Below are positions 3,893 through 5,167 of a stretch of 5,557 bases of DNA, in pieces. The position numbers were made by a program, and so were the translations under genes. Source of the stretch: a bacterium (GTDB taxonomy: Bacteria; SM23-31; JAUVVT01); NCBI GenBank assembly GCA_030616165.1, contig JAUWXV010000241.1:1-5557 (forward strand). The letters are read 5' to 3'. Numbering within the stretch: position 1 is the first letter of the stretch; every line of letters starts with the position of its first letter. The notes beneath the pieces are model-generated. The model saw only the letters and a list, made by a program, of their open reading frames with translations, was not told where the DNA came from and did not search any database.

Positions 3893-5038
3893 ATGGAATA
3901 TTTATTATATTTTATTTCGTTCATATTTACAAAGATAATAAATTTTAATAAAAATGTAAGCAAGGCAAATTTTAACAGGATACTAATAATAAAACTCGAC
4001 CATATCGGGGATGTCGTAACTTCTCTGCCTTCTGTTTATTCTATTCGAAAAAGGTTTCCGGATGCTGTGATTACATTTTTAACAGGTGAATGGTCAGAAG
4101 ATGTATTGAAGAATAATCCGTACATTGATAATATTGAGATTTACAACTCGAACAGGTTTAGTCGAGAAAGAGAAAATAGAAAATCAATTATCCAGAGGAT
4201 AAGATATTTAAGAAGTATATTTAAAAAGAGATATGACCTTATTGCAGGATTAAGGGACGATTGGCTGTCACTTATTTTTTCACTGATTTATTTTCCAAAA
4301 GCAAGAATAGATAGAGGAACTGTCAGGATTAAACTAAAATATGAAAACACTTCAGGATTGATTTTTAAAAGTGAGAAAGGAAATAAAACGCTCCACGAAG
4401 TAGATACAAATTTAAAAATAACTGAAATGGCTGGTGCAGAAGCGATTGGAGAAGAAAAGTTTATATTTTTGTCTGAAAGTGAAAGAGATTGGGCAGAAGA
4501 ATTTTTATCGTCCAAAGGATTAAAAGAGAAGAAGTTTGTCATAATAAGTCCGGGCGCTAAATGGAAATACAGAAGATGGAATACCCGAAACTTTGCTCTT
4601 CTTGCTGACAGAATAAGAGGAAAATTCGGATTGGATATTTTGATTTCTGGTTCTGAAGGTGAGGTCGATACTGCTGAAGATATGAGAGTAATGATGAAAG
4701 AAAAAGGCATATCTGTTGCTGGAAAGATTGACATTCGTCAAATTTTATCATTGTTAGAGAAAGCATTGATTTGTATAACAAATGACAGCGGGATGGTACA
4801 TCTAACTTCGGGATTAAATATTCCTGTGATTGCACTTTTTGGAGCACAGGACCCGATGAAATTTGGTCCGTGGAGTGATATTAATACAGTTTATCACAAA
4901 AAAGTCGAATGTTTTCCGTGCAGTCAGAAAAAGTGCAAACTCAAGGATAATCCATGCATAAATCTGATTGAAGAAGATGAGGTCTTTTCGGGGGTCAGTG
5001 AGATTTTAAATTCAACACAGAATATAGAGGTTCAATAA
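3893..5038 (+). CDS. GT9 family glycosyltransferase (heptosyltransferase-like)
   Basis: GT-B enzyme of 381 residues related to LPS heptosyltransferases WaaC/WaaF/WaaQ, which add heptose to the LPS inner core from ADP-heptose; other members may use other donors. Motifs: RILIIKLDHIGDVVTSLP at 29-46, where Asp40 matches the catalytic Asp of WaaC (Asp13 in E. coli); SPGAKWKYRRWNTRNFA at 219-235, the donor phosphate-binding region; TNDSGMVHLTSGL at 296-308 (Asp298, His303); and ALFGAQDPMKFGPW at 314-327. At the WaaC Lys192 position (two before the conserved Trp229) there is Arg227, and Asn230 replaces the usual Pro. The C-terminus has four Cys (340, 343, 348, 355; C-x2-C-x4-C-x6-C), a pattern common in this family. 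An N-terminal extension of about 28 residues, hydrophobic at 4-17, precedes the Rossmann core and may help membrane association. No Shine-Dalgarno is visible before ATG 3893, which is 6 nt after the previous stop; no other in-frame ATG, GTG or TTG precedes the core motif. The stop lies within the left flanking repeat of the element downstream. Confidence 0.9.
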   Translation: MEYLLYFISFIFTKIINFNKNVSKANFNRILIIKLDHIGDVVTSLPSVYSIRKRFPDAVITFLTGEWSEDVLKNNPYIDNIEIYNSNRFSRERENRKSIIQRIRYLRSIFKKRYDLIAGLRDDWLSLIFSLIYFPKARIDRGTVRIKLKYENTSGLIFKSEKGNKTLHEVDTNLKITEMAGAEAIGEEKFIFLSESERDWAEEFLSSKGLKEKKFVIISPGAKWKYRRWNTRNFALLADRIRGKFGLDILISGSEGEVDTAEDMRVMMKEKGISVAGKIDIRQILSLLEKALICITNDSGMVHLTSGLNIPVIALFGAQDPMKFGPWSDINTVYHKKVECFPCSQKKCKLKDNPCINLIEEDEVFSGVSEILNSTQNIEVQ

Positions 5039-5040
5039 AT
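5035..5040. repeat. Left flanking direct repeat (putative target-site duplication)
   Basis: ATAAAT directly abuts the GAGTC terminus of the palindromic element and is matched by ATAAAT at 5162-5167 directly after the GACTC terminus. It contains the TAA stop of the GT9 gene (5036-5038). Six A/T bases can match by chance in such A+T-rich DNA. The exact abutment at both termini is what supports a duplication. Confidence 0.55.
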
Positions 5041-5060
5041 GAGTCAAGTTTAAAAAGGTT

Positions 5061-5081
5061 AAAACCGCGAATTTCGCTAAT
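5061..5081. repeat. Left arm of imperfect inverted repeat
   Basis: Starts AAAACCGCGAATT and pairs with 5129-5149 (ending AATTAGCGGTTTT), 18 of 21 positions complementary; the three mismatches are at arm positions 9, 14 and 18. Two 9-bp units are visible: CCGCGAATT (5065-5073) and TCGCTAATC (5074-5082). The loop between arms is 47 nt. Confidence 0.8.
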
Positions 5082-5118
5082 CAAAACTAATTGATTTTTG
5101 TTAAATTGTGTAATATTA

Positions 5119-5145
5119 AATTCGTGAAATTCGCGTAATTAGCGG
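5119..5145. repeat. Three contiguous 9-bp units in the right arm
   Basis: AATTCGTGA (5119-5127), AATTCGCGT (5128-5136) and AATTAGCGG (5137-5145) follow each other without gaps; read on the - strand they are TCACGAATT, ACGCGAATT and CCGCTAATT in reverse order. The right part of the inverted repeat (5129-5149) covers most of two of these units. The left arm contains two related units in opposite orientation. Confidence 0.7.
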
Positions 5146-5161
5146 TTTTTAGAGCGGACTC

Positions 5162-5167
5162 ATAAAT
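5162..5167. repeat. Right flanking direct repeat (putative target-site duplication)
   Basis: ATAAAT directly after the GACTC terminus of the element, identical to 5035-5040. Removing one copy plus the element would restore a TAA stop followed by about 32 nt to the next ATG, a spacing in keeping with the rest of this tightly packed operon. Confidence 0.55.

Follow-up and report, generated by a model that had tools for sequence, protein, structure and literature searches.

A probable 121-bp MITE with IS1182-like ends in the loop of a GTAG-type REP palindrome, overlapping a glycosyltransferase stop codon

MITEs that derive from bacterial insertion sequences have been reviewed (PMC10969869). In terms of target choice, insertion sequences of the IS3, IS110, IS4, IS256, and IS5 families target REPs (PMC1525189), and IS1272, an IS1182-family element of staphylococci, is reported to replace a target inverted repeat and to leave no duplication (PMC5678879). 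REP sequences that carry a GTAG tag have been described together with RAYTs (PMC2817692, PMC3733652). The window analyzed here, the whole 5,557-nt stretch of DNA, holds a 121-bp palindromic unit between two glycosyltransferase genes that is very probably a MITE, that is, a non-autonomous derivative with IS1182-like insertion-sequence ends. The kind of element is already known, and this MITE family is a well-supported new member of it.

Table 1. Features at the insertion site, in window coordinates
Feature	Coordinates	Strand	Evidence
GT9-family glycosyltransferase gene	3893..5038	+	ORF; PF01075, 2.7e-29
REP half beside the GT9 end (GGTTCA + ATAAAT)	5029..5040	-	Joined flanks match C216; GGTTCRATNNATYGAACC family
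Left target-site duplication ATAAAT, holding the TAA stop	5035..5040	.	Sequence; single copy in the empty paralogue C216
121-bp non-autonomous element (very probable MITE), a long imperfect palindrome, GAGTC...GACTC	5041..5161	.	Copies; hairpin fold
Left terminal inverted repeat GAGTCAAGTTTAAAAAGGTTAAAA	5041..5064	+	20/24 bases match one C42-element end (GAGTCCACTCTAAAAAGGTTAAAA)
Right terminal inverted repeat GAGTCCGCTCTAAAAA, read on the - strand	5146..5161	-	16/16 bases identical to transposon-relative ends (L091, L093)
Right target-site duplication ATAAAT	5162..5167	.	Sequence
Other REP half CGAATCCTTACA; - strand TGTAAGGATTCG, with the GTAG-type tag degenerate as GTAA	5168..5179	-	Flank comparison
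GT4-type glycosyltransferase gene of a polysaccharide cluster, cut by the contig end	5197..5557	+	PF13439, 9e-9

The repeats on which the sequence-only reading was built lie where it had placed them: GAGTC (5041–5045) and GACTC (5157–5161) bracket the element, and copies of ATAAAT (5035–5040 and 5162–5167) abut it on either side. The left ATAAAT contains, as had been claimed, the TAA stop codon of the GT9 gene (5036–5038), whose reading frame is intact. The spacer between this stop and the ATG of the next gene measures 158 nt with the element and 31 nt after removal of the element and one ATAAAT (127 bp), in good agreement with the earlier estimate of about 32 nt. The 121 bp contain no ORF of at least 60 aa and fold into a DNA hairpin of −20.3 kcal/mol (z −3.46, with none of 200 shuffles folding as well), the corresponding RNA fold having an energy of −36.4 kcal/mol. 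A transcript across the GT9/GT4 spacer would carry a long hairpin, and the element may influence the operon transcript and its expression.

Two points qualify the earlier reading. GAGTC and GACTC are indeed the outermost bases of the terminal inverted repeats, but the repeats are not limited to these 5 bp; the true repeat is about 16 nt long and imperfect, with the consensus GAGTCMRSTYTAAAAA. In addition, the bare arrangement of inverted and direct repeats, which had been taken as the signature of a transposon, is not sufficient in itself: a 6-bp direct repeat immediately outside a 5-bp inverted repeat (span 60–400 bp) is found five times in the window, against a mean of 2.9 in first-order resampled sequence. 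The arrangement is therefore within chance in this AT-rich window, and it is the occurrence of multiple copies that makes the MITE call, which stands on these copies and on a matching, presumed parent element.

Searching the 3.74-Mb genome (343 contigs) with a 133-bp query gave 25 sequence-search matches, comprising 11 full-length copies at 93–100% identity spread over 10 contigs, several copies at 78–82%, and fragments. The close copies span GAGTC to GACTC over 120–121 bp, with a point change at an end in one or two of them. Perfect 6-bp duplications flank eight of the 11, and the duplicated 6-mers vary by site (ATAAAT, ATAGAT, ATTTAT, and ATATAT); such differing duplicated flanks around GAGTC-ended copies are what the sequence-only reading had proposed to look for. 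At the remaining three close copies the duplication is imperfect, with only three of six positions agreeing at locus L011. The copies lie in both orientations and in unrelated contexts, most of them intergenic, and all fall outside ORFs of at least 80 aa, with the possible exception of L014. Counting older copies as well, nearly all end at GAGTC/GACTC; the older copies fit the duplication pattern less well. Common outer flanks (AATCACTCAAAATTTTTCTTGACTTCCCTCGAAAAATGTA) are seen for the older copies L013 and L016 (on C101 and C208), and also for L015 and L018, indicating that each of these is part of a longer repeat and does not count as an independent insertion. The 121-bp element had no match in plasmid and phage collections, nor did the MITE core in viral contigs or the exact pattern of ends plus core across 84,980 genomes.

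The transposase with matching terminal repeats that the earlier reading had suggested looking for is present in the same genome, on an element whose ends are close to those of the MITE but not identical. A search of this genome for the ends gave one exact inverted pair, 1,858 bp apart (C42:872–2729). The C42 element itself (C42:873–2728; 1,856 bp) has inverted ends that match perfectly for 19 bp (GAGTCCACTCTAAAAAGGT) and is flanked by an ATATAT duplication. Its one ORF encodes an IS1182-like transposase of 563 aa, and the element is the sole copy in the genome. The transposase matches the Pfam families DUF772 and DDE_Tnp_1_6, both over cut-off, and its best NCBIfam match is to IS1182 (NF033551, 3.9e-24 over residues 47–512), at 85 bits against a cut-off of 270. 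Nine relatives of the transposase retain the conserved motifs QRTD, ELHFD, and NIEAT, which supply two Asp and one Glu as putative catalytic DDE residues. Other end pairs at up to two mismatches were found at chance level in this genome (223 matches versus 233 in controls), and so only the exact C42 pair was retained. Candidate pairs at C328, C105, and C335 were dropped on reading as chance or contig ends, and a PF01609 profile search of the genome gave one weak match, on C132.

The C42 element and its transposase are absent from the other five genomes examined of the phylum (six in total, none other of the same genus), and viral contigs yielded nothing for the transposase. Relatives of the transposase at 37–63% identity occur in Ignavibacteriaceae, other Bacteroidetes, Cloacimonadota, Chloroflexi, and an archaeal bin, a scattered distribution that suggests spread of the lineage by horizontal transfer. 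One end of these relatives has a GAGTYCACTCTAAAAAG-like sequence, and for two of them the other end is exactly the right end of the MITE. Duplications at the related transposons in other organisms are also imperfect. The archaeal relative (L092:1890–3703; Thermoplasmatales bin, CP070724.1), which is 53% identical and has a GAGTCCACTCTAAAAA end, represents either cross-domain transfer or a binning error.

The exact match of the MITE right end to these relatives, together with the match of its left end to C42, would fit mobilization by the C42 transposase or a close sister. As the ends are not identical and the MITE, outside its terminal ~24 bp, has no obvious similarity to the C42 element, C42 need not be the actual mobilizer; this could be C42 or a close sister that is now lost or unassembled.

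The interior may have an origin of its own. As a refinement of the MITE reading, and not an alternative to it, an older dispersed palindrome (ACCGCGAATTTCGC...GCGTAATTAGCGGT) may have been captured between IS1182-like ends to give a new MITE, a composite origin to which we give slightly less than even credence. A core of 99–103 bp without GAGTC ends is present at L012:1501–1599 (C50) and L017:1501–1603 (C163), the right half of the core is found alone at L019–L024, and a genome of another phylum, that of G041, has two similar palindromes (75–78% over 69 columns). These palindromes, of the CGCGAATTTCACGAATTA type, resemble the MITE core, lack GAGTC ends, and lie at L161:1501–1576 and L171:1501–1574. 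However, the C50 and C163 sequences could be MITE copies so old that their ends have decayed, and AT-rich palindromes may come to resemble one another by convergence. Both the capture of an independent palindrome by transposon ends and end decay in old copies are plausible.

The insertion event that had been proposed from the repeats is supported by an empty paralogue of the target site: the window flanks joined over one ATAAAT (GGTTCAATAAATCGAATCCTTACA) are identical for 24 nt to C216:12–35, which is uninserted and has a single ATAAAT. This target is a palindrome, GGTTCR-ATNNAT-YGAACC, that is interrupted exactly at its 6-bp loop by the window copy (L001), by L008 and L010, and by the C42 element. 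At all four of these sites the arms are kept and the loop is duplicated, for which reason an IS1272-like replacement of the inverted repeat was rejected. The uninterrupted palindrome is present at 58 sites genome-wide at up to two mismatches, and the reversed control gave none. The tag GTAGGGG is found on 17 of 38 distinct palindrome copies, and most of these copies have GTAGGGG or a near match to it on one side. Palindromes of this GTAG type lie on both sides of a RAYT-like Y1 transposase gene (C182:26124–26714; L139:625–1215) that encodes 177 aa and scores 71.5 bits with NF047646, for which the cut-off is 80; the genome has six further Y1_Tnp matches, and other Y1 genes are adjoined by related GTAGGG palindromes whose loop is ATTTAT. 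Being a tagged stem-loop that exists in many copies and flanks a RAYT-like gene, the target palindrome (GTAGGGGTTCGATTTATCGAACCC) is a REP of the GTAG type described in PMC3733652 and PMC2817692. The target is thus itself a palindrome of a mobile type, an observation that, like the separate existence of the element core, goes beyond the sequence-only reading. At C73:2986–3199 (L149), REP-like palindromes (GGTTTGATTTATCAAACC) are spaced at 49 and 98 bp and resemble a REP array.

REP loops account for four of the 14 independent insertion sites, whereas REPs number 58 and ATNNAT sites about 49,600 in the genome, so that the REP hits far exceed chance expectation (P ~2e-9, a value that serves only as a guide because the REP pattern was defined after the sites had been seen). 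At a fifth site, L011, just one of the two sides has a REP half, and the other insertion sites are ATNNAT without strong arms. Exclusive targeting of REPs was considered and rejected, as the palindrome score of the flanks is strong at only a minority of all insertion sites. The preference for the ATWWAT loop of GTAG-type REPs is therefore marked but not exclusive.

These observations can be rationalized with a scheme in which a DDE transposase of the C42 type likely binds GAGTCYRCTCTAAAAA-like ends, excises or copies the element, and joins it into a 6-bp staggered cut at ATNNAT. Such joining would duplicate the six target bases; this cutting chemistry, like the identity of the mobilizer, we infer from the ends and flanks. 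In the window, the insertion would have struck a REP copy that overlaps the GT9 stop codon, and because the duplicated ATAAAT regenerates TAA, the GT9 protein is unchanged. A broader proposal is that an IS1182-like lineage evolved landing in the 6-bp loops of RAYT-made REP hairpins, with duplication of the loop in place of inverted-repeat replacement, and gave rise to its MITE by capture of a third palindrome family, not by internal deletion; we offer this proposal tentatively and consider it on balance doubtful.

The palindromic site also allows the boundaries of the element to be drawn differently. A mobile unit of 125 bp with AT ends (ATGAGTC...GACTCAT), for which only the 2 bp NN of ATNNAT would be duplicated, predicts identical letters to the 121-bp unit at all ATNNAT sites. 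We consider this reading unlikely, since at L006 (GTTCAT/GTTTAT) a G outside is matched by a G inside the would-be element, which favors a 6-bp over a 2-bp duplication, L006 being the only site that clearly discriminates. Furthermore, the empty REP already has AT on both sides.

With the 121-bp unit retained, the nature of the enzyme that moved it can be considered. The seven Y1_Tnp matches and many palindromic repeats of this genome, and the palindromic form of the MITE itself, would suit a repeat of the REP/REPIN type whose movement depends on a RAYT, a Y1 tyrosine transposase, and not on a DDE enzyme. This is very improbable, as duplications are clear at the 121-bp unit, its terminal repeats are of the DDE type and match those of a DDE transposon, and the GTAG-tagged REP serves in this genome as the target and not as the element; the duplications and the C42 element already largely refute a RAYT origin. 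Target duplications are not a known product of RAYT/REP movement. An intergenic hairpin with a conserved function (terminator, attenuator, or small-RNA gene) repeated by happenstance would fit the strong fold and the intergenic position of most copies but is scarcely credible, because the element has no Rfam match, no intrinsic terminator was found at the window site, and the copies, in unrelated contexts and both orientations, stop exactly at differing duplicated flanks.

The preferred reading of a MITE with IS1182-like ends illustrates how an insertion can be harmless if the stop codon lies within the duplicated target. REP sites both full and empty, the MITE, and its presumed parent are all present in one genome and form a ready set for tests of DDE hairpin-loop targeting. 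In the literature searched, no description was found of the MITE family, of its pairing with an IS1182-like element, or of its use of REP loops.

Like the MITEs of bacterial insertion sequences (PMC10969869), the present element is short and non-coding, occurs in multiple intergenic copies with target duplications, and has terminal inverted repeats in common with a transposase-bearing element. Its interior differs from theirs in being a palindrome that is also found alone, not the remnant of a known element. The C42 element resembles the IS1182 family and IS1272 (PMC5678879) in its combination of DUF772 and DDE domains, its length of ~1.85 kb with one ORF, its ends of ~16–19 bp, and its preference for inverted-repeat targets. 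In contrast to the family, its transposase falls under the NCBIfam cut-off (85 versus 270 bits), and in contrast to the report on IS1272, insertion here preserves the arms of the target and duplicates its 6-bp loop. Insertion into REP palindromes is shared with the REP-targeting families of PMC1525189; however, IS1182-like elements are unnamed there, the preference here is partial (four of 14 sites), and both the MITE and its presumed parent use the REP site. The target palindrome agrees with the GTAG REPs (PMC2817692, PMC3733652) in its sequence and in flanking a RAYT-like gene on either side, but unlike in GTAG REP/RAYT systems, the REP here is the landing site and not the element itself. 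The comparison extends the set of REP-targeting elements by an IS1182-like lineage and its MITE, with a clean duplication of the 6-bp loop, in a sparsely sampled phylum (six genomes examined).
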